From: Prevotella sp.
GTDB taxonomy: Bacteria > Bacteroidota > Bacteroidia > Bacteroidales > Bacteroidaceae
Direction of reading: 5' to 3'
Length of the DNA: 64,000 nt
Assembly: GCA_017554105.1 (NCBI GenBank)
Contig: JAFZIY010000015.1
Span: 186,001-250,000 of the forward strand
The notes under the pieces: generated by a model
What the model saw: the letters and a program-made list of their open reading frames with translations, nothing else
Database searches by the model: none
Told to the model about the DNA's origin: nothing
Shown: positions 18,728-59,630 of the stretch, piece after piece
How positions within the stretch are numbered: position 1 is the stretch's first letter
Layout: each line of letters begins with the position of its first letter
Position numbers and translations under genes: made by a program

Positions 18728-18947
18728 TCTCCGCTAATTACCACTAATTACACGCAAATAAAGTATTATCGTTATATTCTCGTTAATTCGTGGAGATGCT
18801 TTTAACGTAAATGACCGAGAATAATACGTCAGTAACCGGATATAATTAATGTGTATTTACGTTTCATTTACGTCGATTTACGTTTTCTCCACTAATTAAT
18901 TACACGCAAATAAAGTATTATCGTCTCATTGGCGTTAATTTGCGGAG
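18728..18947. repeat. AT-rich intergenic repeat, copy 1 (downstream of LRR module A)
   Basis: Two palindromic sub-units, 18728-18795 and 18886-18947, each starting TCTCCRCTAATTA, holding ACACGCAAATAAAGTATTAT and ending in GCGTTAATTTGCGGAG or a variant. They are separated by a link with TTTAACGTAAATGACCGA. Copy 2 lies at 21328-21585 in the same position relative to module B. Confidence 0.85.
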
Positions 18948-18995: not shown

Positions 18996-19027
18996 CAAAA
19001 AAGCGTGCCAGTCAATGACTGGCACGC
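18996..19027 (-). terminator. Terminator of module A
   Basis: Stem GCGTGCCAGTCA/TGACTGGCACGC (19003-19014, 19016-19027) followed on the minus strand by a T6 run. Nearly identical to the terminator of module B. Confidence 0.85.
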
Positions 19028-19071
19028 CCGTAAGTTATTTATTCTAGGATGTTTCTTGCAACTATTGGGTA

Positions 19072-19284
19072 TTAGTCCCAGATTTTCTTGATATAGTCGT
19101 TAGTAAAGAAAGTCATTGGCTTTGCTTCTTTCTCTACGATAGAAGTCTCTTCTTCGTCGTCAACTATCTCATCATGCTTTTTAGCCATATCTTCGCCAAT
19201 AACACCCTGCTCACTACCTGCCATTATAGGCTGTGCATAGATAGGTGTCACATCAGCGATTGGCTTTACATACAAATTTTTCAT
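19072..19284 (-). CDS. Acidic small protein of LRR module A (YVKP / NDYIK family)
   Basis: 70 residues with no match I recognise. It shares three landmarks with the products at 21660 and 26318: the start MKNLYVKP, the short core IMAGS at residues 20-24, and the end TFFTNDYIKKIWD. Between the last two is an acidic stretch (DEIVDDEEETSIVEKEAKP). There is no signal peptide or membrane helix. It begins 14 bp after the LRR gene stop and shares its terminator, so the two are co-transcribed. A peptide precursor, an anchor or chaperone for the LRR protein, or a regulator are all possible; no modifying enzyme is near. Confidence 0.85.
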   Translation of the reverse strand: MKNLYVKPIADVTPIYAQPIMAGSEQGVIGEDMAKKHDEIVDDEEETSIVEKEAKPMTFFTNDYIKKIWD

Positions 19285-19298
19285 ATCTACTGTTATCT

Positions 19299-20984
19299 TT
19301 ATTTTACAATAAATTTCTTTCCGTTCTGGATATATACACCCTTTGAAGGATTCTCAACCTTAACACCCTGCAAGGTGTAGATTACACCATCCTCTGTATT
19401 TTCAACAGTTACGTTGCTGATTCCTGTAGCCTCTTCGTTTGGTTCACCGAAAGACTTAGAGAAGAAGGCAGGAAGAGTACGAGGCTTTTCGCCCCAGTCA
19501 CCATATTCAGCAAAGTCTCTTGGCCACTCATCTTCTCTAAACTCAGATGGGTTGATAGTTAAAAGCTCAGCACCCTTGGGCTCTTCATAGATAGAGTTTG
19601 GCAACTTCAAATGAGCCTTGTTCTTACCAGGAGTCAACTTCTTAGCACGGAAGAAAGCAACATAATCGTTAGAAATGGGGGATGTTGCTGACATATCAGT
19701 CTTGCTATACGGACCCATCACAAAGTTTCTTTCAACTACAGTACCGTCAGAACCGAGCTCATAAGGACCAATCTTTGTTCCAGTTTCAAGTGTGCAGTTT
19801 GCTACCAGATAGTTCTGCAGATTGATTGTCTTATTGTCGACAACGGTTGACCTTACAGTTCTGTCATAGGGATTGGTCTGCCAAGAAGCGCCTGACAAGA
19901 TAGGAAGTGCGAATGAACCACTGTCAGCCTCGCCATAGATAATCACACCTGTATTGGCAGGAATACCGAAAATTTCCTGCAACTTCAAAGTATAGGAACC
20001 GTCTGAATTCTTTGTTACTCCGTTTACAATGTATGCACGATAGCACAATGGAACATAGTGGGCAACATTGTCGCTGAACGTTCTCAATACAACAGGCTTG
20101 TCAACAGGGATGCCTTTACCAGGAGAAGAACTGATGAAGTCCTGCCAGCCATTGTTGGAGACAGTATAGTGGTTATCCAGCCATGCCTGGAACTTACCAG
20201 CGTGCAATGAAGTCTCGAGATCAAGTTGATGCTGGGTGTTCGTGAAGAACTCCTCAGAACCTGCGGGGAAATGTAACGTAGCATAAATTCTCGTTCCGTC
20301 TGCCTGAGTCTGTCCAACGGTAACGTCCTTGTCAAATGCACCATGCTCCGCAGTAGTATATCCCTCAACAGTCACTTCAATAAGATTGTCAATTTCTGCA
20401 TTCTGGAAAGCCTGATTTTCGATATACTTAACTGTTTTAGGAATTGTGATCTCATGAATTGGAGTATCATCAACAGCATGACCTGCAATATATTCAACAG
20501 ATGAAGGAATCGTAAATGTTGTCGTCATCGCAAAATTATTATCAAAACAACTTTGACAGAGTGTCTTTACACTTGCGAGCTTTGCTGTTGAGCAATTGGG
20601 GAAATACTTGAATGTCATACAATTTTTAGTCTTCTGAACTGTTGCAGTATAGTATGACTTAGTATCGGGGTTCCATGCCTGATATTCTTTTGGATCACCG
20701 TCATTTGTCTCAACAAAAGTAGCACCACTATAATCTACAGTAGTTGCATTTGTGAAACCTCCACCCTGGAACGGATCCAAAGTATTGATTGTTCCAGTGA
20801 AAATCAAAGTTTCTGCAGCTTTAATAGCAGCCTCAGAAACACCCAAATCACCCAGGTTCTGTCCATCACTACCAGAACCTACAATGTAGGCAGTTTTACC
20901 GTCACTACTAAAAGTGACTTGCCATGCGTTTGCAGTAAGGACGCTGAAAATCCCTGCTACCAAAATAAGTAAACACTTTTTCAT
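19299..20984 (-). CDS. Secreted BspA-type leucine-rich-repeat protein, module A
   Basis: 561 residues. A signal peptide (MKKCLLILVA... ending TANA) is followed by a beta-rich N-part and BspA/LRR_5-type repeats around residues 130-215 (FTIPSSVEYIAGHA, ITIPKTVKYIENQAF). A long region with a bacterial-surface look (FQAWLDNHY, IPANTGVIIYG, FVMGPYSKTD) comes next, then a C-terminal tail YTLQGVKVENPSKGVYIQNG and KKFIVK. The tail is shared with three other exported proteins of the window and resembles a short type IX secretion sorting domain (inference). LRR_5 proteins of Bacteroidales often mediate adhesion. It has a long leader (about 200 bases) from a clear promoter. Confidence 0.88.
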   Translation of the reverse strand: MKKCLLILVAGIFSVLTANAWQVTFSSDGKTAYIVGSGSDGQNLGDLGVSEAAIKAAETLIFTGTINTLDPFQGGGFTNATTVDYSGATFVETNDGDPKEYQAWNPDTKSYYTATVQKTKNCMTFKYFPNCSTAKLASVKTLCQSCFDNNFAMTTTFTIPSSVEYIAGHAVDDTPIHEITIPKTVKYIENQAFQNAEIDNLIEVTVEGYTTAEHGAFDKDVTVGQTQADGTRIYATLHFPAGSEEFFTNTQHQLDLETSLHAGKFQAWLDNHYTVSNNGWQDFISSSPGKGIPVDKPVVLRTFSDNVAHYVPLCYRAYIVNGVTKNSDGSYTLKLQEIFGIPANTGVIIYGEADSGSFALPILSGASWQTNPYDRTVRSTVVDNKTINLQNYLVANCTLETGTKIGPYELGSDGTVVERNFVMGPYSKTDMSATSPISNDYVAFFRAKKLTPGKNKAHLKLPNSIYEEPKGAELLTINPSEFREDEWPRDFAEYGDWGEKPRTLPAFFSKSFGEPNEEATGISNVTVENTEDGVIYTLQGVKVENPSKGVYIQNGKKFIVK

Positions 20985-21188
20985 ATTATAAAAGTTTAGT
21001 TAATTATATATTCTATATTTTCTCGCTAAGAGCTTCTAAACCGTAAGAGTCTTGATTGTACATGAAAACGTTGTTGAATACACCGCTTAGATATATAAAT
21101 CTTCTCTCGTTCTGTGTGGCACGTTTCTATCATTGATAGAGACACGTCTAATAGTGCCTACTTGAATAGGCAATTCCATATTTGGGGG

Positions 21189-21219
21189 CAAAGGTAAGGA
21201 GTTTTAATGAAATACACAA
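21189..21219 (-). promoter_or_regulatory. Promoter of LRR module A
   Basis: On the minus strand, TACCTTTG (complement of 21189-21196) with TTG (complement of 21217-21219) 20 bp upstream. The leader of about 200 bases starts with two hairpins: 21155-21172 (TGCCTACTTGAATAGGCA) and 21123-21143 (TCTATCATTGATAGA core). Confidence 0.75.
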
Positions 21220-21327
21220 GTAAAACGAAGAAAAATAGAACAAAACACGTTGATTTTTAGGCAGATTTGTTATATATGCGATAAAAATACAAGAAAATGA
21301 GGCTCTCCACAAATCATCGCTTTAAAG

Positions 21328-21585
21328 TCTCCGCTAATTAACACAAATTACACGCAAATAAATATTATCGTTATATTAGCGTTTATTTGTGGGGACTTTT
21401 TTAACGTAAATGACCGAAAATAACACGTAAATAATCGGTAATAATTAATGTGTATTTACGTTCCATTTACGACAATTTACGTTTTTGTTTTCCACAAATC
21501 ACCTCTGCTCGGCTATGCCGCTTGCCAGAGCAAGAAATTCCACGCAAATAAAGTATTATCGTCTCATTGGCGTTAATTTGCGGAG
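21328..21585. repeat. AT-rich intergenic repeat, copy 2 (downstream of LRR module B)
   Basis: Same order as copy 1 (18728-18947): TCTCCGCTAATTA, ACACGCAAATAAA, TTTAACGTAAATGACCGA, TAATTAATGTGTATTTACGT, ATTATCGTCTCATTGGCGTT, TTTGCGGAG. About 40 extra bases at 21496-21540 contain GCCAGAGCAAGAAAT; a similar GACAGAGCAAGAAAT occurs at 49850-49864. Confidence 0.85.
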
Positions 21586-21600
21586 GGGTTGGGGTGGACA

Positions 21601-21632
21601 AAAAAAACGTGCCAGTCGTAATGACCGGCACG
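21601..21632 (-). terminator. Terminator of module B
   Basis: Stem CGTGCCAGTC/GACCGGCACG (21608-21617, 21623-21632) with a T-run on the minus strand (complement of 21600-21607). Homologous to the module A terminator, including flanking sequence. Confidence 0.85.
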
Positions 21633-21659
21633 CCCGTTAAGTATTTATTCTGGGATATT

Positions 21660-21893
21660 TTATTCCCAAACTTTCTGGATATAGTCGTTAGAGAAGACGT
21701 CTGACAACACAATCTTCTCAGGCTTGAAAGACTCCAACTCTTCGTCGTCCTCTTCGTCTTCCTCAACAACGTCACGACGTTTAGCCCATGCACCACCTGG
21801 ATCCATCTGTCCTACTTCGCTTGCACCCACCATGATGCTTGAATACCCCATCTTTGTCTCTTCAACGAGAGGTTTAACATATATCTTCTTCAT
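21660..21893 (-). CDS. Acidic small protein of LRR module B (YVKP / NDYIK family)
   Basis: 77 residues, paralogue of the module A and C peptides: start MKKIYVKPLVEE, core SIMVGAS at residues 19-25, a strongly acidic middle (VVEEDEEDDEELE) and end VFSNDYIQKVWE. It carries a Gly-rich insert (MDPGGAWAKRR) after the core. No signal peptide. Gene start lies 15 bp after the LRR gene stop. Function unknown; conservation of both ends but not the middle suggests the ends are recognition segments. Confidence 0.87.
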   Translation of the reverse strand: MKKIYVKPLVEETKMGYSSIMVGASEVGQMDPGGAWAKRRDVVEEDEEDDEELESFKPEKIVLSDVFSNDYIQKVWE

Positions 21894-21908
21894 ATTTCTA
21901 TGCTTTAT

Positions 21909-23798
21909 TTATTTAACGATGAATTTCTTACCATTCTGGATATAGATGCCCTTCACGGCCTTGTCAACCTTCATGCCCTGGAGAGTGTAGATGTTGCCGT
22001 CGTTCTTGACGTTCTTTGTATGTACGTCCTCGATGCCTGTAGTCTGGCTGTTCAGGTATTCCATCCACTCCTCGTCGTTTAGTTCGTCCATATATTTAGC
22101 CATGGTGTAGCCATCTTTAAGTTGGCGAGTTCCCCACAGGTGCTCCCACTTAAGTTGCTGGTCACTGCCCATAGCATCCTTATAATACCACCATCCATAT
22201 TGTACCATTTCCGTCTCGGTAAATTTAGTGTTCTCATCCTTATATTCATTTCTGTAATACTCGTCGCTGCTTGAATCCTTCTGGTCGTCGCATACTATGA
22301 TAATCTCACCGCCACCAGGGAATGGGAACTGAGTTGTAGAAAGGTTCAGATATGCCTTGTTAGCAGGAATATATCCAGGCTTTGAGCGGAAAAAGCCAAT
22401 CCAGTCACCGTTGGTATTTGACTCGTCTATACTACCTGTCTGCTTGTTGTAACGGCATATGGTGCTTTCTCCGTAGTTGCCATATTGACTGTAATATTCC
22501 TGACCTGCATCCGTCTGGCTAAACAAGCCCATCACGAACTGGCGGGTAACGGATCCTGAGCCATACTGGGTATCTACATGATAGGGCTCCAGATAGGTTG
22601 CGTGGTCACCAACATTTGCAGTTGCCGTAAGGAGGTTGTCTGTATAGATATCGCCTTCCCATGCCACTGTTGACATCTGTAGAATATCTTTTCCGTCACC
22701 GTCCTTTGCGTTAGTGCCACCCATGAGTATCACACCTGATGCCTGTGGTATAGCATTCACACGCTTTAGTTTCACGGTCACCGTACCTGTTGTAGGGTCA
22801 GAAGCGTTTGCAACCGCATTGATGTCGGTCACGATGTAAGCCCTGACACCTGCTGGCACGAGATGTGCGTCAAAGGTGTGGCTATAGGTGGTAAGGAAAT
22901 TCTTGTCCCACATTCTCTTTATGTTCTCTTGAGTGCGAAGGAACTCATAGAAGCCATTTGGAGTGTTATCTTCATTTACTGCATTTTGGTAATGAGCGAC
23001 GAGCCACTCCTGGAACAGTTTTGTGTTTTCGGCTATCGCTGCTGTAAGCTTATGATGCAGATTGACATACAGTTCTTTTGTCTCCTGCGGGAAATAGAGT
23101 GTTGCATAGTCTCTTGAGGGGTCTGCATGGCCATAGGTTTTCATGTGCGGGAATGCATTTCTACCTGCCTTAATGACACCTAATGTTTCAACATGAACTT
23201 CGGTCAGACCATAGGTGTTGCTGAATGCCTGAGTTTCAATTTGCATATTCACGTCTGCACTGTGTCCTTCCCATTCATCGAAATACACCTTCTTCAGGAA
23301 CTTTTGGTCCGAAGTCTCATCAAAGGCTTGTGAAGCAATGTGCTTGATATATCCAGGAATATGCACTTCCTCAATGCCGCACTGCTTGAAGGCATAACTA
23401 GGAATATACCTGATATTACCCGATCCAGTAGGAGAGACTCCATCTGGCCATATGATTTTCGTAAGTCTTCGGAAGTTGGAGAATCCCCATTTAATGTTTG
23501 GGTCGTTATTAAACGTGGCTTCGCTAAGGTCTATTATGGTAACATTATTCTTGGTAGCGAGACCACCATTATCACCAAACCAGTTGGCCCCCCATCCTTG
23601 ACCGAAGTTTCCTACCAACTTAATGGTGTTATAACTATGTGTACCATCTTCTGGTCTGCTTTGAAGACCGTTATTAGCAAGGTCTTCAGGAGTAATTGTG
23701 CACACACCGTCACTTATGGTGTAAGCACTCGCGCCAACCCATGCGAATGCGCCAATCAAAAAGGCAATTAGCCTATGAAAATGTAAACACTTTCTCAT
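21909..23798 (-). CDS. Secreted BspA-type leucine-rich-repeat protein, module B
   Basis: 629 residues: signal peptide ending GASA, LRR_5-like repeats at about 110-215 (IPSYAFKQCGIEEVHIPGYI, HIASQAFDE, METQAFSNTYGL-like), a long conserved region (LYFPQETKELYVNLHHKL, LFQEWLVAHY, VPAGVRAYIV, GDWIGFFRSKPG), then the tail IYTLQGMKVDKAVKGIYIQN plus GKKFIVK. It is much closer to module C (24470) than to module A in the central region (CGIEEVHIPGYIKHI against TGIETLHIPGYIKFI), so B and C share a recent ancestor. Divergent from module C with a 671-bp shared upstream region. Confidence 0.88.
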   Translation of the reverse strand: MRKCLHFHRLIAFLIGAFAWVGASAYTISDGVCTITPEDLANNGLQSRPEDGTHSYNTIKLVGNFGQGWGANWFGDNGGLATKNNVTIIDLSEATFNNDPNIKWGFSNFRRLTKIIWPDGVSPTGSGNIRYIPSYAFKQCGIEEVHIPGYIKHIASQAFDETSDQKFLKKVYFDEWEGHSADVNMQIETQAFSNTYGLTEVHVETLGVIKAGRNAFPHMKTYGHADPSRDYATLYFPQETKELYVNLHHKLTAAIAENTKLFQEWLVAHYQNAVNEDNTPNGFYEFLRTQENIKRMWDKNFLTTYSHTFDAHLVPAGVRAYIVTDINAVANASDPTTGTVTVKLKRVNAIPQASGVILMGGTNAKDGDGKDILQMSTVAWEGDIYTDNLLTATANVGDHATYLEPYHVDTQYGSGSVTRQFVMGLFSQTDAGQEYYSQYGNYGESTICRYNKQTGSIDESNTNGDWIGFFRSKPGYIPANKAYLNLSTTQFPFPGGGEIIIVCDDQKDSSSDEYYRNEYKDENTKFTETEMVQYGWWYYKDAMGSDQQLKWEHLWGTRQLKDGYTMAKYMDELNDEEWMEYLNSQTTGIEDVHTKNVKNDGNIYTLQGMKVDKAVKGIYIQNGKKFIVK

Positions 23799-23987
23799 TT
23801 TGCAAAAGTTTTAGTTAATGTTATATTTGTAATTTATAATAGATTTTACTTGTATTTTTCTCGAGTTATAGGAATAAATATCCTCTCTTCTGTTGCTTCT
23901 TGTTCTATAGGTATTCTGTAGTTATAAGTGTCATTTACAGACACTTTTCAGCATCATCTTTCGGCAAGATGATGTTTAAACATGTGG

Positions 23988-24018
23988 CAAAAGTAAATAA
24001 TTATAATGAAACAAACAA
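23988..24018 (-). promoter_or_regulatory. Promoter of LRR module B
   Basis: On the minus strand, TACTTTTG (complement of 23988-23995) with TTG (complement of 24016-24018) at 20-bp spacing; predicted leader about 180 bases. Confidence 0.72.
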
Positions 24019-24253
24019 GTTATATAAGGAAAAAATACACAAACAGGCTGTTCTTTTCATGGAAAAATCGTTTTTTTTTACATAATTACATTCACTTATC
24101 CATAGATTATCGCATCGACGTGCAAATCTTTTTTAACGTAAATGGTATTGCCTTGGCTATATTATATAAATAATGTATCATGTTGTTTTTTTTATTTTTC
24201 AGTATTAACATCCTTAATTAATTGTAATTTTTACATTCTTTTTTATCAAAATG

Positions 24254-24284
24254 TTTGGTATAAAGAAAAAAGTGTGTACCTTTG
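24254..24284 (+). promoter_or_regulatory. Promoter of LRR module C
   Basis: TTTG at 24254-24257, a 19-bp spacer, and TACCTTTG at 24277-24284. The leader to the start codon is about 180 bases. Confidence 0.75.
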
Positions 24285-24469
24285 CGCCTCGAAATCGGAA
24301 AAGTCGTTTCAAAAGGACCACTTCACGATTCTGTTGATGATAGAATTAGCCACACACAAAAAGAGAGACGAATTTTAATCATAAAAACACAAACAGGATA
24401 AAATATTTTAGGGTATTTAGAATAACACCTAGCACAAAAAACATTTAAAACATTAATTTTAGATTTAAG

Positions 24470-26275
24470 ATGAAAAAGAACTTCAAGAGGTTTCTGACCT
24501 TGTCGCTGTGCGCTGTAGCATGTATGAGCGTTAGCGCTAAAGCAACAATTAATGGTGGAGTACTGACAATTAACGGCTCCAATGATGTACAATTCAACAA
24601 TCTTAATGAAATCGGCGGTGGTCAGATCACGAAAATCAAGCTTGTAGGTGATTTCCGTAATGGATGGTCAGGTTACTGGCTGCAGAACGGTACTGCACAG
24701 GAGAAGGCTTCGATTACTGAAATCGACATGAGCCAAGCAGACATGTCTGGTGACAACAACGTATGGAGCTTCGTTAGCTTCCCAAATCTTAAGACTGTAG
24801 TATGGCCTGCAGAAGGTAAGATTACAAACATCCCAAGTTACGCATTCAAGCAGACAGGTATTGAAACACTGCATATTCCTGGTTACATCAAGTTCATCCG
24901 TAGCCAGGCCATTGATGACGCTTCAAACGCAAAGAACCTCAAGAAGGTTTATTTCGACAAACTCGAGGGTAAGGATGCAAGCGTACGCATGCACATCGAG
25001 CGTCAGGCATTCAGCAACAACTACGCCCTTCGTGATGTCTATATCCTTACCGAGGGTGTCCTTACTGCTGACAACAACGCTTTCCCACACTGGGACACAT
25101 ACGGACACGCTGACGTGAGCAGAACCTATGCTCGTCTTTACTATCCAAAGAGCAGGATTGAACTCTATGTGAACCTGAAGCACGTTATCACTGAGAATAT
25201 GGTAGGTAACGAGAAACTTTTCCAGGAGTGGCTTGTTGAGCATTACAACCAGGCATGCCGCTATCAGAACGGTTTCTATGAGTTCCTTAACCATGGTCCG
25301 ATTGATGTCAAGCCAGAGCCAGTAGGCACTTCTAACCTTTACACTTTCAGCGATACCGTTTCTTATATCGTACCAGCAGGTGTAAAAGCATATATCGTAA
25401 ACAGCATATCACCTGACCCTAACGACAAGAGAATTCTGCACCTGTCACTGCGTAGTGTTAAGGTTATCCCGGCTTATACTGGTGTTATCCTCTATGGCGG
25501 TACAAACGCATTTGACGAAAAGGGTAATCCTTACATCTCAATGTCAGTCGTTAATTATGATGGTGAGGTGTTCGACAGAAACAACACAAATGGCAACGTG
25601 AACTATCTGACTGGAACTGCAAACAAGAGTGGTGTTGTTACCCACATTTATCCTACTCAGACCTACCCAGGTTCCGACATTGTATACTATAACTACTGGA
25701 TGGGTCGTTACAGCCAGACAGAGTCAGGTAAGATTTATAAGAATAATCATGGCAACTATGGTAATGGTGCCGGTCTTCCAGAAAACGACTGGGTTAGTTT
25801 CTTCCGTATCGCTAAGAAAGGTGGCACAGCACCTCTCGGAAGAGCATATCTTAGTCTGTCTTCCAACGAGTTCTCATTTGCAGCGAGTGGTGGTGCCATC
25901 GTAATTGATGTTGATGACCAGTTGGATGCAAGCAATATTGCAGAGTTCTACAGGAACGAGTTCAAGGACGAGCATATGAACCTTATGAATGAGGACGAGA
26001 TGAAGGCCGCAAGACTATGGTATCTCTCTGATGGTACAAAGATTGAGTGGGTTAAGGACTGGGGTACTGTAAACATCAACTATAACGAGATTATCGCTAC
26101 AAATGCGGCTAACGCCAAGCCAGCAACTGTTGTAGAGGAAGACGGTATCGCAGGTTCTATCGCAGCAGAAAAGACCACAGGCGACAATAATTACTACACT
26201 CTTCAGGGTGTAAAGGTTGACAATCCTAAAAAGGGTGTCTTCATCAAGAATGGCAAGAAGATTGTTTTGAAATAG
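24470..26275 (+). CDS. Secreted BspA-type leucine-rich-repeat protein, module C
   Basis: 601 residues: signal peptide (MKKNFKRFLTLSLCAVACMS... ending VSA), LRR_5-type strands (ITNIPSYAFKQTGIETLHIP, FIRSQAIDDAS, HIERQAFSNNYAL), conserved central blocks shared with module B (LYYPKSRIELYVNLKHVI, LFQEWLVEHYNQA, VPAGVKAYIV, ENDWVSFFRIAKKG) and tail YTLQGVKVDNPKKGVFIKNG plus KKIVLK. Probably surface-located or secreted. It is the only module on the plus strand, so modules B and C look like an inverted duplication. Confidence 0.88.
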   Translation: MKKNFKRFLTLSLCAVACMSVSAKATINGGVLTINGSNDVQFNNLNEIGGGQITKIKLVGDFRNGWSGYWLQNGTAQEKASITEIDMSQADMSGDNNVWSFVSFPNLKTVVWPAEGKITNIPSYAFKQTGIETLHIPGYIKFIRSQAIDDASNAKNLKKVYFDKLEGKDASVRMHIERQAFSNNYALRDVYILTEGVLTADNNAFPHWDTYGHADVSRTYARLYYPKSRIELYVNLKHVITENMVGNEKLFQEWLVEHYNQACRYQNGFYEFLNHGPIDVKPEPVGTSNLYTFSDTVSYIVPAGVKAYIVNSISPDPNDKRILHLSLRSVKVIPAYTGVILYGGTNAFDEKGNPYISMSVVNYDGEVFDRNNTNGNVNYLTGTANKSGVVTHIYPTQTYPGSDIVYYNYWMGRYSQTESGKIYKNNHGNYGNGAGLPENDWVSFFRIAKKGGTAPLGRAYLSLSSNEFSFAASGGAIVIDVDDQLDASNIAEFYRNEFKDEHMNLMNEDEMKAARLWYLSDGTKIEWVKDWGTVNINYNEIIATNAANAKPATVVEEDGIAGSIAAEKTTGDNNYYTLQGVKVDNPKKGVFIKNGKKIVLK

Positions 26276-26317
26276 GATATAATTAAACGTTTAATTAAAC
26301 AGAGTTTATAAACTGTT

Positions 26318-26542
26318 ATGAAAAAGATGTATGTAAAGCCCAGTGTTGAGGGTGTAGTAACAAGTCTTACCGACAGCATCATGGTTGGTGCGAGTGGCGA
26401 GATACTCCCTGGGGCTAAGGTTCAGAACATTGTCGATGATGACGATGATTATGATTTTGACGATGATTTCGAGACAGAGACTGCTTCTGTTGAGCCGCAG
26501 TCATTCTTCTCAAATGACTACATCAAAGAAGTCTGGGAATAA
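26318..26542 (+). CDS. Acidic small protein of LRR module C (YVKP / NDYIK family)
   Basis: 74 residues: start MKKMYVKPSVEG, core SIMVGAS at residues 20-26, an Asp-rich run (DDDDDYDFDDDFETE), end SFFSNDYIKEVWE. It follows the LRR gene by 42 bp and ends in a strong terminator. A second reading frame over the same bases (26385-26582) is Arg/Ser/Thr-rich and rejected. With its two paralogues it defines a small-protein family tied to these LRR genes; function unknown. Confidence 0.87.
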   Translation: MKKMYVKPSVEGVVTSLTDSIMVGASGEILPGAKVQNIVDDDDDYDFDDDFETETASVEPQSFFSNDYIKEVWE

Positions 26543-26565
26543 GAAAGCAATTACATGGATTAAGG

Positions 26566-26598
26566 CGTGCAGGTCGTTTTGACCTGCACGTTTTTTTT
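26566..26598 (+). terminator. Terminator of module C
   Basis: Stem CGTGCAGGTC/GACCTGCACG (26566-26575, 26581-26590), loop GTTTT, then T8. Confidence 0.9.
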
Positions 26599-35315: not shown

Positions 35316-37100
35316 TTACTTAACGATGAACTTCTTGCCGTTCTGGATATAGATACCCTTCACAGTCTTTTCAACGCGCTGTCCGGCGAGGTTGTAGATA
35401 GGACCGTTGGCTTCGTTCTCGGCAGTTACGTTCTCGATGTTCGTAGATTCATACTCAAACGCTGTGACGCCGATAGCGGCATTGCCGTCAGTGAATACCA
35501 CGATACCAGTTATTGTAGCGGTGTCGTCGTCTGACAGAACGGAGATGTCTGTACCCTCAAGCTTCGACCACTTGCGATAGAATGGCACCTCGTTGTTGCT
35601 CTCATCCTTGAGATAGTAGTTGGTACGCTCGTATGGATCACCTGTTGAAGGTGTGATGGTCACAACCTCTGTTCTTACTGTTCCTGAAACCTTTACGTAT
35701 GCGCATGCCATGTCATCGGTAACGGCTGTTACAGCCACCTCCTGAGGAGTAGCCGTACCTTCGGAGGTTTCCAGTTGGTTCTCGGTTACCTTTGTAATCT
35801 CAGGCAGTTTGTTGTAAACCTTGTATTCTGTAACATCGATAGTGCCGTTGAGCACCGTTCCTGCAGTGTATCCGAGTGAGCAGTTGTAGAAGTCGATAGA
35901 GCCCGAATCGTCTGTCACAAACATATCCTTGCCGTTAACGAATGTCACAACGGCATTGGTGAGTGTCAGTCTTACCTTGCTGGTTGGTGCTTTCGCTTTG
36001 AGTGCTGCGATGTTTGCAACGGTCTCAATATCCTCGCCTCCCTCATATTCGATATTGGTCACACCGATGGCAGGAGTATTGTTGAGCAGAACCACGATAC
36101 CAGTAACGGTTGCTGTTGCACCGTCAGTGAGTCCAGAGAGGTCAGTACCGTCGAGTGACGACCACTTGCGATAGAACTGCACAGAGTTAGCATCATCGTC
36201 CTCAAGGAAGTAGTTGGTATAGCCTGTCTCTTCGTTATTCTCAATATAAACTTTTCCTGTTACCTTGATGAGGTGGCAGAGGAGGTCGCTGTTGATGTCC
36301 TCAATAGACGGCTCGCTTGGAGTTGCGGTGCCAGAGGTAGCAGTCAGTTCGTTGTTGATAACTGATGTGATTTCTGGCATGCCGTTGTAAACTTTGTATT
36401 CAACAACTGCTGTACCGTTCAACTTCTGCCCTGCAGTGTAAGAAAGACCGCAGTTGTAGATGTCGATAGCACCAGTGGCATCCTGAACATACATGTCACT
36501 TCCGCTTGCGAAGTTCACCTGAACATCGGTGAAAGTAAGTTTTGCCTTTGATCCTGACTCAAGGGCTTTCAGTTCGGCGATGTTAGCCACTTCCTGATAT
36601 TCCTGTGCTGAACCACCTGTAACCAGTTTGATGTTGTCAAGACGTGCGTTTTGAGACATGGGGTTAGAGAAAGTAAGTTTCAGTTTCTGTGTGCCAGACG
36701 GAACACTTATGAGGGCTCCATCCTTGCTCACATCACTGACGGTAACACCAGTAGTCTCTGAGGTTACGGTAATCTGGTTCTTGTTATAACTGTATGACAA
36801 AGTCAAGTTACCGGATTTACCGTTAAGGTTAATCTCTGCAGTCCATGACTCGTTACGGTCTTTTTTGGGAAGAAGCAACTCTAGATTTGACTCGTCGTTT
36901 GCATTAACCCATAACTTCGTGTAAGGATTCTCATTAGAAGAAGAGAGCGTGTAAACGGCATTGGCATTTGTAACCTCATTTACGAGTTTTCCCGCCTCCG
37001 ATGACTGCCAGTCCTCCTCCCAAATCGTTGTCTGGGCGGAAGCGCCGAGCGCAATTAAAGAAAAAAATGCCCCAAGGGCTAAGCGTAAAGTTTTTTTCAT
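35316..37100 (-). CDS. Secreted protein with two tandem OB-like domains and a C-terminal sorting-type tail
   Basis: 594 residues. A signal peptide (ending GASA, next residue Gln) is followed by a beta-sandwich (about 25-165, LDNIKLVTGG near its end). Two tandem repeats at about 170-355 and 360-545 share DMYVQDATGAIDIYNCGLSY / DMFVTDDSGSIDFYNCSLGY, EYKVYNGMPEI / EYKVYNKLPEI and QFYRKWSSLDGTDLS / PFYRKWSKLEGTDIS. They look like OB-fold surface domains; no catalytic residues are recognised. The end IYNLAGQRVEKTVKGIYIQN plus GKKFIVK is the tail also found on the three LRR proteins. Confidence 0.85.
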   Translation of the reverse strand: MKKTLRLALGAFFSLIALGASAQTTIWEEDWQSSEAGKLVNEVTNANAVYTLSSSNENPYTKLWVNANDESNLELLLPKKDRNESWTAEINLNGKSGNLTLSYSYNKNQITVTSETTGVTVSDVSKDGALISVPSGTQKLKLTFSNPMSQNARLDNIKLVTGGSAQEYQEVANIAELKALESGSKAKLTFTDVQVNFASGSDMYVQDATGAIDIYNCGLSYTAGQKLNGTAVVEYKVYNGMPEITSVINNELTATSGTATPSEPSIEDINSDLLCHLIKVTGKVYIENNEETGYTNYFLEDDDANSVQFYRKWSSLDGTDLSGLTDGATATVTGIVVLLNNTPAIGVTNIEYEGGEDIETVANIAALKAKAPTSKVRLTLTNAVVTFVNGKDMFVTDDSGSIDFYNCSLGYTAGTVLNGTIDVTEYKVYNKLPEITKVTENQLETSEGTATPQEVAVTAVTDDMACAYVKVSGTVRTEVVTITPSTGDPYERTNYYLKDESNNEVPFYRKWSKLEGTDISVLSDDDTATITGIVVFTDGNAAIGVTAFEYESTNIENVTAENEANGPIYNLAGQRVEKTVKGIYIQNGKKFIVK

Positions 37101-55171: not shown

Positions 55172-55215
55172 TTTATAAGCATCGACAACAAACTAACAAC
55201 AAACAATAGACTACT

Positions 55216-55854
55216 ATGAGAAAACTTTTATTTATGATTCTTTGCCTGCTCGTGATGGGTGTTGCCACGGCAGACGCACAAAAACATAAGTCGTCAAAAT
55301 CGAGAAAACACCAGAAAACAGTGAGAGTTAAGACGCCACAGCCGAAAGACTCTGTCGTAATATTTGAATATACAGAAGAACACGGAATGGAGACGACGGG
55401 AGTGAGGCTGCGCCGTATAGGCAATGACTACCTGCTTACAGCAATACTCACAGAAGTGATACGGGCAGACATGGACCGCCTGATTGTCTCCTCACGTGAG
55501 AGGACGGACGAGATGCTTGCTTATGGACGCTTTTCCCATGAGATAGAAATGGGCGATTCCATCGTTATTTCACAGATTCCGGGCATCGAGGTGAAAGTCC
55601 CGAAAAGTGTGGCAGACAAAGTAGTGCAGATGGCAGAGGAAGGTGGACTTGCCGAGATGAAGTCCTACTATACTACGGAAGAGGATGAGAGGTTGGTAGG
55701 TGGCTCGTGGTGGAGCCTCAGGATGCGACTCCCGGGAAAGGAACCTGTGTCATCAGGTGGAAGAAACGGTATGGGTCCCAATGTGGTTTTCAAAATCTAT
55801 CAGAACCTGTTCTACCAGAAGGTGATATACAAAAAGAAAACGAGGAAGAAGTGA
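55216..55854 (+). CDS. Exported hypothetical protein, first of three in a row
   Basis: 212 residues: signal peptide (ending TADA, next Gln), a basic linker (KHKSSKSRKHQK), a beta-rich body (VVIFEYTEEHGMETTGVRLR) and a very basic end (VIYKKKTRKK). No family recognised. It shares layout with the two following proteins (signal, Gln+1, similar length) but only weak sequence similarity. Separated by 32 bp from the next gene, so co-transcribed. Confidence 0.75.
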   Translation: MRKLLFMILCLLVMGVATADAQKHKSSKSRKHQKTVRVKTPQPKDSVVIFEYTEEHGMETTGVRLRRIGNDYLLTAILTEVIRADMDRLIVSSRERTDEMLAYGRFSHEIEMGDSIVISQIPGIEVKVPKSVADKVVQMAEEGGLAEMKSYYTTEEDERLVGGSWWSLRMRLPGKEPVSSGGRNGMGPNVVFKIYQNLFYQKVIYKKKTRKK

Positions 55855-58181: not shown

Positions 58182-59630
58182 ATGAAAAAGTTACTGTTTA
58201 TCGTGGCGCTGATGTTTTGTGTCATCAGTGTACAGGCAAAGGTGAAGTTGCCGCACCTGCTTGGCGACAACATGATTCTGCAGCAGAATAGTGATGCCCG
58301 TCTGTGGGGCGAGGCAAAACCGGGAGCACGTGTGAATGTCAGTGTGAGTTGGAGTGATGCCAAGTATGAGGCAAAGGCCGATGAAATGGGTAAATTCTTA
58401 CTCACGGTGCGTACTCCCAAGGCGAGTTACACACCGCTAAGCATCACCTTTGACGACGGCGATAAACTGACGCTTAACAATATACTTGCAGGTGAGGTAT
58501 GGGTATGTGCTGGACAGAGCAACATGGAAATGCCGATGAAGGGTTTCGGCAACTGTCCCGTCGAGGGTTACATGGACGAGGTAATCAATGCCCGCAACTA
58601 TAAGGGAATACACTATGTGAAGATACCGAGCGTGATGAGCATGACACCGCTTGAGGATGCCGACTGTGAGTGGAAGGAGATTGGTTCGCAGACCATCAGC
58701 GAGGCATCGGCAACGGGTTATTTCTTCGCACAGACGCTGAACAAGACACTTGACATACCTGTGGGACTCATCATGGCAAACAAGGGTGGTTCGAGAGTGG
58801 AGAGTTGGTTCACTAAGGAGAACCTTGAGAAATACACTGAGGAACCGACCGACTCCGATGGAATCGTTGCTTTTAAGCCCGAATGGGACTACCATAGGGC
58901 ACTGGTTTGGGGCAACGGAACATTCAATCCCATACTGAAATACACCGTGAAGGGCATAATCTATTATCAGGGTTGTTCCAACGTAGGTGATCCCGGTAAC
59001 CAGTATTCCGACCGAATGAAGATTCTTGTTGACCAGTGGCGCAGCCAGTTCGGCCTTGGTGAGATACCTTTCTATTTCGTGGAGATTGCCCCTTTCTGGT
59101 ATGATGACTCCAACGGTACCAGTGCGGCGAAGTTGCGCGAGCAGCAGTTCCGTGCCTCGCAGATAATTCCTAATAGCGGTCTGGTGTGTACCAACGACCT
59201 CGTTTATACTTATGAGCCGCAACAAATACACCCGGCACAGAAACGTCAGGTGGGGCAGCGACTGGCTTTGCTGGCGCTGAACGGCACCTACGGCATGCAG
59301 GAGATGTGGTGCCAGAGTCCGTCGTATAAGGATATGAAGGTCATTGAAGGTGCTGTTCATATTCATCTCAACAACGACTATGGTGCAATATCACGCTTCC
59401 AGGAAATCTCTGGCTTCGAGATAGCAGGTGAGGACAGGGTGTTCCACATGGCCATAGCAGAGCATTTCTGGCAGCCTGGCGGTGGATACTGGGACGAGAC
59501 GATAAAGATATGGTCGCCTGAAGTACCCAACCCCGTTGCCGTTCGCTACTGTTTCCGCAACTTTGAGATAGGCAACCTGAAGAACGCAGCAGGTCTGCCC
59601 CTCTTCCCGTTCCGTACGGATGACTGGTGA
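58182..59630 (+). CDS. Sialate O-acetylesterase-type SASA-domain enzyme
   Basis: 482 residues from the ATG at 58182; an upstream ATG at 58149 overlaps the promoter and is rejected. Signal peptide (MKKLLFIVALMFC... ending VQA), an N-terminal beta domain (LPHLLGDNMILQQNSDARLW), and the GDSL/SGNH-like catalytic domain with nucleophile Ser113 (CAGQSNMEMP) and block WYDDSNGTSAAKLREQQF. The catalytic His is in QQIHPAQK; family members usually have Asp two residues before that His, here Gln. It removes O-acetyl groups from sialic acids or acetylated plant glycans. Confidence 0.92.
   Translation: MKKLLFIVALMFCVISVQAKVKLPHLLGDNMILQQNSDARLWGEAKPGARVNVSVSWSDAKYEAKADEMGKFLLTVRTPKASYTPLSITFDDGDKLTLNNILAGEVWVCAGQSNMEMPMKGFGNCPVEGYMDEVINARNYKGIHYVKIPSVMSMTPLEDADCEWKEIGSQTISEASATGYFFAQTLNKTLDIPVGLIMANKGGSRVESWFTKENLEKYTEEPTDSDGIVAFKPEWDYHRALVWGNGTFNPILKYTVKGIIYYQGCSNVGDPGNQYSDRMKILVDQWRSQFGLGEIPFYFVEIAPFWYDDSNGTSAAKLREQQFRASQIIPNSGLVCTNDLVYTYEPQQIHPAQKRQVGQRLALLALNGTYGMQEMWCQSPSYKDMKVIEGAVHIHLNNDYGAISRFQEISGFEIAGEDRVFHMAIAEHFWQPGGGYWDETIKIWSPEVPNPVAVRYCFRNFEIGNLKNAAGLPLFPFRTDDW

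Follow-up and report, generated by a model that had tools for sequence, protein, structure and literature searches.

Linear polyphosphorylated peptides (LPP), encoded by the lpp clusters of Bacillota, are ribosomally synthesized and post-translationally modified peptides (RiPPs) that were reported in 2026 (Popov et al. 2026, PMC13381572). As described in the available parts of that paper, a precursor of 35-200 aa carries the leader YxxPxVLxHQxIxFETxxS, and its enzymes are the RiPP recognition element (RRE) LppB, an HprK-like kinase that phosphorylates Ser3 of the core, an exporter, a nucleotidyltransferase (NTase) and a SipW-like peptidase (catalytic S29, H68 and D93) that cuts after T-1. In the crystal structure, N33 and D70 of LppB contact the leader P and Y. 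The discussion of the paper restricts LPP to Bacillota, and the string 'Bacteroid' occurs 0 times in its available text. Here we consider three gene pairs in a 64,000-nucleotide stretch of a Prevotella sp. genome (contig JAFZIY010000015.1, positions 186,001 to 250,000; the whole stretch is called the window), each of which combines a gene for a leucine-rich repeat (LRR) protein with a downstream gene for a protein of 70-77 aa. The small proteins are probably the precursors in an LPP-like RiPP pathway of Bacteroidota; about 20 such precursors would be dispersed in the genome, many of them linked to cargo of the type IX secretion system (T9SS). A keyword search of a subset of PubMed Central found no paper describing such a system in Bacteroidota.

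The likeness to LPP, as far as the available text of PMC13381572 describes that system, extends to several of its parts. The precursors are short and have a YxxP leader, a conserved Ser near the cleavage site and a variable C-terminus; there is a discrete RRE, an HprK-like kinase and an SpI/S26-like peptidase with conserved Ser and His; and some loci of the order Bacteroidales also have an NTase and an ATP-binding cassette (ABC) exporter (both in genomes G416 and G078, the ABC component in G180, G044 and G054). Unlike LPP, the present system belongs to Bacteroidota and is known here from sequence alone, and it has about 20 scattered precursors, many behind T9SS cargo, served by one module at the side of rpoD. 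The stretch read at that module contains no exporter or NTase. The leaders correspond only at the Y, the P, hydrophobic positions and the terminal Ser. Because the full LPP leader consensus is not found and neither exporter nor NTase was seen at the module of this genome, the system is named LPP-like on sequence comparison, rather than a member of LPP.

The window gene pairs and the small-protein family

The three pairs and their flanking hairpins are listed below.

19299..20984, minus strand: BspA-type LRR protein, 561 aa; LRR_5 match, signal-like N-terminus, short T9SS sorting tail (..YTLQGVKVENPSKGVYIQNGKKFIVK)
19072..19284, minus strand: putative LPP-like precursor, 70 aa; predicted leader about codons 1-21 (19222-19284), then an acidic core
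19001..19029, minus strand: terminator-type hairpin 3′ of the first small gene; 13 pairs and a T run, fold -23.6 kcal/mol
21909..23798, minus strand: BspA-type LRR protein, 629 aa; LRR_5 match, signal-like N-terminus, short T9SS sorting tail
21660..21893, minus strand: putative LPP-like precursor, 77 aa; predicted leader about codons 1-23 (21825-21893)
21605..21635, minus strand: terminator-type hairpin 3′ of the second small gene; 13 pairs (hairpin scan and folding)
24470..26275, plus strand: BspA-type LRR protein, 601 aa; LRR_5 match, signal-like N-terminus, short T9SS sorting tail
26318..26542, plus strand: putative LPP-like precursor, 74 aa; predicted leader about codons 1-23 (26318-26386)
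26562..26594, plus strand: terminator-type hairpin 3′ of the third small gene; 15 pairs (hairpin scan and folding)

All six open reading frames (ORFs) lie where the initial annotation of this DNA had placed them, with gaps of 14, 15 and 42 nt between the LRR gene and the small ORF. LRR_5 scores above the Pfam cut-off in all three LRR proteins, and their secretion was judged by eye from the N-termini. A tail profile matches them at E=4.6e-18 (19299), 1.1e-17 (21909) and 1.2e-16 (24470), the three tails being themselves rows of the profile that scores them. Each small ORF is followed by a strong hairpin and a T run (two of three in the hairpin scan, three of three by folding), and each pair therefore looks like a single transcription unit. 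The LRR proteins are homologous among themselves and so are the small proteins, the second and third of which are 41-42% identical to the first. For the three small proteins, Pfam and NCBIfam give nothing at E<=1, and a search of phage records with the protein of 26318-26542 gave no match. The statement of the initial annotation that no described family was known thus stands for the protein family; for the type of system there is a published relative, the LPP RiPPs.

The small proteins belong to a sizeable family. A profile of the three window sequences matched five additional genomic places at E<=10, a 31-sequence profile found 19 places at E<=0.016 with the window three included, and one extra homologue was recognised by position alone; the 19 places found with a family profile indicate that the family does not arise by chance. 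Across the genus, this genome included, we compared 68 distinct ORFs, which were selected by profile; five loci in which the match falls inside a long ORF (L025, L026, L030, L034 and L035) were left out of the genus tallies. All 68 have the Tyr and the Pro of YxxP. The Pro is encoded by CCA in 24 cases, CCT in 19, CCG in 14 and CCC in 11, and since the residue is fixed while all four codons are used, the constraint acts on the protein. The initial annotation had named a lack of such protein-level constraint as evidence against its reading; at this end of the molecule the constraint is clear. The Y..P pattern is also present in 30 of 31 ORFs read, in 30 loci, from seven named genomes (Prevotella koreensis, P. 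pallens, P. ihumii, P. lacticifex, Hoylesella oralis, H. marshii and Hallella bergensis), all of which carry profile matches, 75 in total.

In the 68 genus ORFs, a second conserved block, [LI][LM]AGS, lies 16-20 residues past the leader Y, and information content drops beyond it. Acidic residues make up 28% of the sequence beyond the leader and 11% of the leader itself, and a W occurs within the last 12 residues in 47 of the 68. Shared ends around a variable middle, as first described, are a true feature of the window three; the FFSNDYIKxVWE end, however, is limited to their own subfamily, also present in G028. A leader that is conserved (YxxP ... [LI][LM]AGS), followed by an acidic end that varies, gives the small proteins the look of RiPP precursors, and among the four roles first suggested for them (precursor, anchor, chaperone or regulator), precursor fits best.

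One could suppose instead that a single gene pair was duplicated and that the small ORFs merely hitchhiked along, having no function in common, given that each window pair as a whole is paralogous to the other two and that a near-identical tandem pair occurs at G000:C25:55174 and 59220. This is very improbable: the paired cargo differs in its domains (LRR, Ig-like, CotH, lyase), the Y and P are fixed despite free codon choice, and the same linkage is found in other families (below). At the tandem pair, the nearly identical small ORFs (55174-55413 and 59220-59465) have cargo of 633 and 1243 aa. As a separate observation, four genomes of the f54/g57 group (G112, G342, G394 and G439) have 2 to 13 profile hits each; in eight of these loci that were read, there is an N-terminal extension ahead of a KKxYxKP-like motif, and none has a T9SS tail upstream of the small ORF.

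A proposed maturation module beside rpoD

The genome has one copy of PqqD, at locus L168, where the gene order is rpoD, a 177 aa protein, an HprK-like protein, an S26-like protein and PqqD. The rpoD-linked order is kept in seven of nine further genomes of the genus that were read; in G044 and G054, the kinase, peptidase and PqqD are found with an ABC transporter instead (ABC by sequence in G054). The PqqD-type RRE matches PqqD at E=2e-15. Its residues N35 and D74, counted by hand from the alignment, align with N33 and D70 of LppB (9x8z) and are invariant in 12 of 12 sequences. Among solved relatives, the lasso peptide RREs TfuB1 (E=3e-7), TbiB1 (7e-5) and PbaB1 (8e-4) outrank LppB (0.007) by profile score.

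The other two proteins retain what catalysis would be expected to need. The P-loop and DD motif of the kinase are invariant in 14 of 14 sequences, and its best solved relative is HPr kinase (E=0.0023). In the peptidase, G-x-S-M-x-P, H-R and G-D are invariant in 13 of 13, as are S44, H82 and D97, the last of which would be the catalytic Asp. The best solved relative of the peptidase is the signal peptidase SEC11A (E=3e-6); the peptidases of L146 and L151 pass the model TIGR02228, and that of the present genome does not. A scan of genome contigs with the kinase alignment gave matched stretches of which at least 589 of 597 were confirmed. Of the best 80 of at least 597 matched stretches, which were used for counts of gene order, 73 carry kinase, peptidase and PqqD successively on a single strand; of the remaining seven, six have no PqqD in the available stretch and one has PqqD on the opposite strand. 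All but two of the best 80 loci are labelled Prevotella or other genera that we take to be Prevotellaceae.

The module and the small ORFs also come together in other families. The genus-only profile A6, which was grown outwards from the window triple and leans to the window kind, was run against 392 genomes of the order and hit 18 of them at E<=0.01; 13 of the 18 belong to other families. In G180, the gene run is T9SS cargo, PqqD, precursor, HprK-like, S24/S26-like and ABC, and in G416 it is PqqD, HprK-like, S24/S26-like, ABC, NTP_transf_5 and precursor. We also took 20 other-family loci chosen for PqqD alone (of 38 listed), and six loci that were already known were included in the same search. 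The strongest three new profile hits in these PqqD-chosen loci, in G078 (E=0.0018), G086 (0.008) and G088 (0.013, just below the HMMER inclusion line), all sit in the PqqD run; the next two hits (E=0.58 and 0.63) lie outside it. The run in G078 is precursor, kinase, peptidase, RRE, NTase and ABC (the last two by sequence), that in G086 is T9SS cargo, RRE and precursor, and that in G088 is RRE and precursor. In all, a homologue and a PqqD-type RRE share a run in five other families, and in three of these the kinase and S26-like peptidase are present too.

Two loci have unusual arrangements. In G088 (L223, 8020-16966), the RRE and a YTKP-type ORF are followed in the same direction by an ORF of 2708 aa with a signal-like start, which is partly masked. 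Downstream of ORFs that resemble PqqD and the kinase, G071 has a 746 aa ORF (L235, 1716-3956) that combines an S26-like motif and an ABC P-loop, both by motif only, and resembles a peptidase-exporter fusion.

A double-glycine leader for a C39 exporter, suggested by the GS motif, was considered and set aside after the S26-like peptidases turned up. The initial annotation had put processing after the GxS core, which is close to the leader/core boundary found here; we propose a cut just before the AGS block. Compared with LPP as given in the available text of PMC13381572, the distance from Y to S is 20 rather than 18, and a cut before the Ala of A-G-S would set the Ser at core position 3, as in the A-Q-S of LppA. 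Two of the three window proteins have IMVGAS, which leaves the register of the Ser uncertain by one residue.

The module can also be compared with other systems that pair such proteins. Paeninodin-like phosphorylated lasso peptides, as described in the available text of PMC13381572, share the RRE, the HprK-like kinase, the NTase, the exporter and a [Y/W]xxP leader; the present system differs in having an S26-like leader peptidase. In the gene runs scanned, Pfam gives neither a macrolactam cyclase nor a B2 transglutaminase-like peptidase, no genome-wide search having been made. The SynChlorMet models (ScmC/ScmD) and the HprK-related kinase A/B models of NCBIfam describe a similar pair of HprK-like and PqqD-like proteins and match weakly, all far below the curated cut-offs.

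It is conceivable, and in our view rather unlikely, that the small proteins are precursors for some other chemistry, for example of an antibacterial or signalling peptide, with the kinase-like protein doing something else and the T9SS protein merely a co-regulated neighbour. The variable acidic core, the weak similarity of the kinase and the members that lack T9SS cargo, such as those of the four f54/g57 genomes, would be compatible with it. However, an RRE with HprK-like and S26-like proteins, joined in G416 and G078 by NTase and ABC, is the published LPP set, the catalytic motifs of the kinase are invariant, and the T9SS-cargo linkage recurs in G164, G180, G086, G191 and G433.

Linkage to type IX secretion cargo

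The C-termini encoded upstream of the small ORFs share TGI, Y..xG, G-[YN]-I and a basic end (36-row tail alignment). For T9SS cargo of Prevotella intermedia, short C-terminal domains (CTDs) with a cleavage region and with motifs B, D and E have been described (Ye et al. 2025, PMC11969387), and those described in the available text are alike in the TGI cleavage region, the Y..xG of motif B, the GxY/GxN of motif D and the basic end. They are unlike in one respect: as far as available, the main text of that paper does not contain the words 'downstream', 'small protein' or 'operon', and it has no small downstream gene. Our tail profile and one built from eight long CTDs of other families match over 21 columns (E=4e-6, probability 87); the CTD of G180, the only one of the eight run against Pfam, passes PF18962. 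Three of ten tails match TIGR04183 (Por_Secre_tail) at E<=10, all under the curated cut-off. SprA is present in the genome, so that the upstream partners have both features of short-CTD cargo, C-terminal motifs B, D and E and a T9SS in the genome.

The initial annotation took the LRR protein to be the partner, and this did not hold. Among the cargo proteins scanned, 6 of 17 paired and 2 of 8 unpaired ones exceed the LRR_5 cut-off, and these counts rule out an LRR-specific partnership. Other paired proteins have Big_2, Big_3, Y_Y_Y, CotH or rhamnogalacturonan-lyase domains, some have no domain at all, and C10 and M6 peptidases are also among the T9SS-tailed cargo scanned. As judged from these C-termini, the feature common to the partners is a short T9SS sorting tail, not the LRR.

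In this genome, 17 of the 19 profile-found homologues lie directly behind an ORF ending in a short T9SS-type tail; the other two are C29:216709 and C29:230958. Counted in reverse, a small ORF lies behind 18 of 61 tail hits examined (of 65; C13:85495, C23:29484, C17:100039 and C17:106647 were left out), and two of the 43 tails without one, C20:39 and C29:365360, stop at a contig edge. Of the 68 genus ORFs, 46 have a T9SS tail within 121 nt upstream (median gap 17.5 nt), one sits at the end of a contig, its tail having been identified in the tail search, and 21 are untailed, 8 of these from G010 and 3 from G032 and G044. The own-genome and genus counts are partly circular, because the rows of the tail profile A5 were taken from tails upstream of small ORFs at the same loci. 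The seven named genomes are independent of the A5 rows, and there 10 of the 31 ORFs lie behind a T9SS tail. This is far above chance (p about 1e-9) if about 2.3% of genes are tailed, a level that assumes an estimated 2,600 genes. Beyond the genus, T9SS cargo is found upstream of the small ORF in the loci read from G164, G180, G191 and G433, the tails of G164, G191 and G433 being judged by eye; G277 and G390 have a tail of a different kind there (see below), and in the rest of the 13 other-family genomes, the loci read have no tail upstream of the small ORF.

The pairing is therefore frequent and not obligatory, a strictly obligatory one being ruled out by the ten of 31 in the named genomes. 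The fixed partnership of the initial annotation holds well in its own genome and for about two-thirds of the genus ORFs (46/68), but not in the named genomes, where homologues are nearly as solitary as would have spoken against it.

Another scenario is that the small proteins are unmodified, dedicated partners of T9SS cargo, acting as a cytoplasmic chaperone, secretion pilot or anchor for the co-translated protein. We regard this as unlikely. The tight 3′ linkage, the terminator-type hairpin behind each window pair and the recurrence of the cargo linkage in other families are what it would lead one to expect. Yet for 21 of the 31 named-genome homologues the 150 nt upstream contain no T9SS tail, G010 has eight homologues, none behind a tail, and no SprA match, and 43 of 61 tails in this genome lack a small-ORF partner. 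The presence of small ORFs tracks the PqqD/kinase module rather than SprA (see below), and membership in RRE gene runs would be left unexplained.

Some small ORFs follow proteins of other kinds. In G277 and G390 (L125, L126, L140 and L142) and at L029, homologues follow differently tailed proteins at gaps of up to 220 nt, and these tails end in a Y..xG-like motif, as if the T9SS motif order were reversed. At L210 and L214 (G010) and L361 (Hallella bergensis), homologues lie directly behind proteins that end in RPVFKF or RPVFEF and have no T9SS tail. The window also encodes a fourth protein that has a signal-like N-terminus and ends in a short T9SS tail (35316-37100, minus strand; no Pfam match); no small ORF lies downstream of it. 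Around the first two pairs there are three copies of a 22-base intergenic repeat (18750-18771, 18902-18923 and 21540-21561), with 0-1 mismatch between copies, and none is expected in shuffled sequence.

Co-occurrence of small ORFs and the module

PqqD is found in 75 of 100 relatives and in 50 of 60 genomes of the genus. Among the 34 same-genus genomes that are at least 90% complete, 30 have PqqD and four do not, and small-ORF profile hits (E<=0.05), most of which were counted as hits without being read as ORFs, occur in 29 of the 30 and in one of the four. Fisher's test, which ignores relatedness where the PqqD-minus genomes may be close relatives, gives p=0.0026, or 0.0007 if G044, the PqqD-plus exception with one plausible ORF at E=0.029 in a separate search, is counted as positive. 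The kinase tracks PqqD in the 16 genomes tested, being missing from 10 of 10 PqqD-minus and present in 6 of 6 PqqD-plus genomes.

SprA does not follow the same pattern. It is present in all four PqqD-minus genomes (G020, G032, G042 and G052), of which G020, G042 and G052 have no small ORF, and also in G043 and G044, and G010 has PqqD and no SprA match. The idea that the small ORFs depend on T9SS itself was rejected, as all five hitless same-genus genomes (G020, G042, G043, G044 and G052) have SprA and G010 has eight hits with no SprA match.

Position and co-occurrence taken together thus support the small proteins as likely substrates of the module. Several observations weigh against the LPP-like precursor reading. 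The HQxIxFET part of the LPP leader (available text of PMC13381572) is absent here, and the 14 kb read around the module of this genome contain no ABC exporter or NTase. The kinase is under the curated cut-offs (ScmC, E=9e-6) and has no Pfam hit. Of the 20 other-family PqqD loci, 17 have no profile hit below E=0.02, and the 17 kb read for G086 and G088 contain neither a kinase nor a peptidase motif. On the side of the cargo, the untailed majority in the named genomes and the eight ORFs of G010 also count here, and just four of 13 other-family profile-hit genomes show upstream T9SS cargo in the loci read. The co-occurrence test has the limits of relatedness and unread hits given above, G032 has two small ORFs (one hit in the co-occurrence search) and no module, and the incomplete genomes G001, G023, G027, G053 and G055 have hits and neither PqqD nor kinase; incompleteness alone predicts about 5.8 such cases in 25 genomes, which is not proof.

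Proposed pathway and implications

The LPP-like reading suggests the following sequence of events. The precursor would be translated from the same transcript as the T9SS cargo protein, and its YxxP leader would be bound by the single PqqD-type RRE encoded beside rpoD. By analogy with LPP, the co-encoded HprK-like kinase may then phosphorylate the conserved Ser of the [LI][LM]AGS block, and the S26-like Ser/His peptidase would remove the leader just ahead of that block. Finally, the acidic core would be exported and could act at the cell surface, with or alongside the co-made T9SS cargo. A role with the cargo is suggested by the recurring gene order in the genus and in G164, G180, G086, G191 and G433. 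Direct conjugation of the cargo to the A-G-S peptide was considered and is unsupported by the N-alanyl dHex-HexNAc linkage described in the available text of PMC11969387.

More tentatively, and with considerable doubt, we consider that this could be a dedicated surface-phosphopeptide system of Bacteroidota, in which many T9SS cargo operons have a precursor of their own, one central kinase-RRE-peptidase module acting in trans matures them all, and the phosphorylated acidic peptide physically partners or decorates the cognate surface protein or the polysaccharide that bears T9SS cargo.

If the LPP-like reading is correct, it would link a peptide-modification pathway with type IX secretion, and a RiPP family first described in 2026 would be extended to a second phylum. 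Within the genus sampled, the RRE is widespread (50/60), in contrast to the patchy occurrence in Bacilli given in the available text of PMC13381572. The layout would be RiPP-like, with one maturation locus serving about 20 scattered precursors. The tie to cargo would offer a lead on the purpose of the phosphopeptides, namely that they may act in partnership with particular surface proteins.

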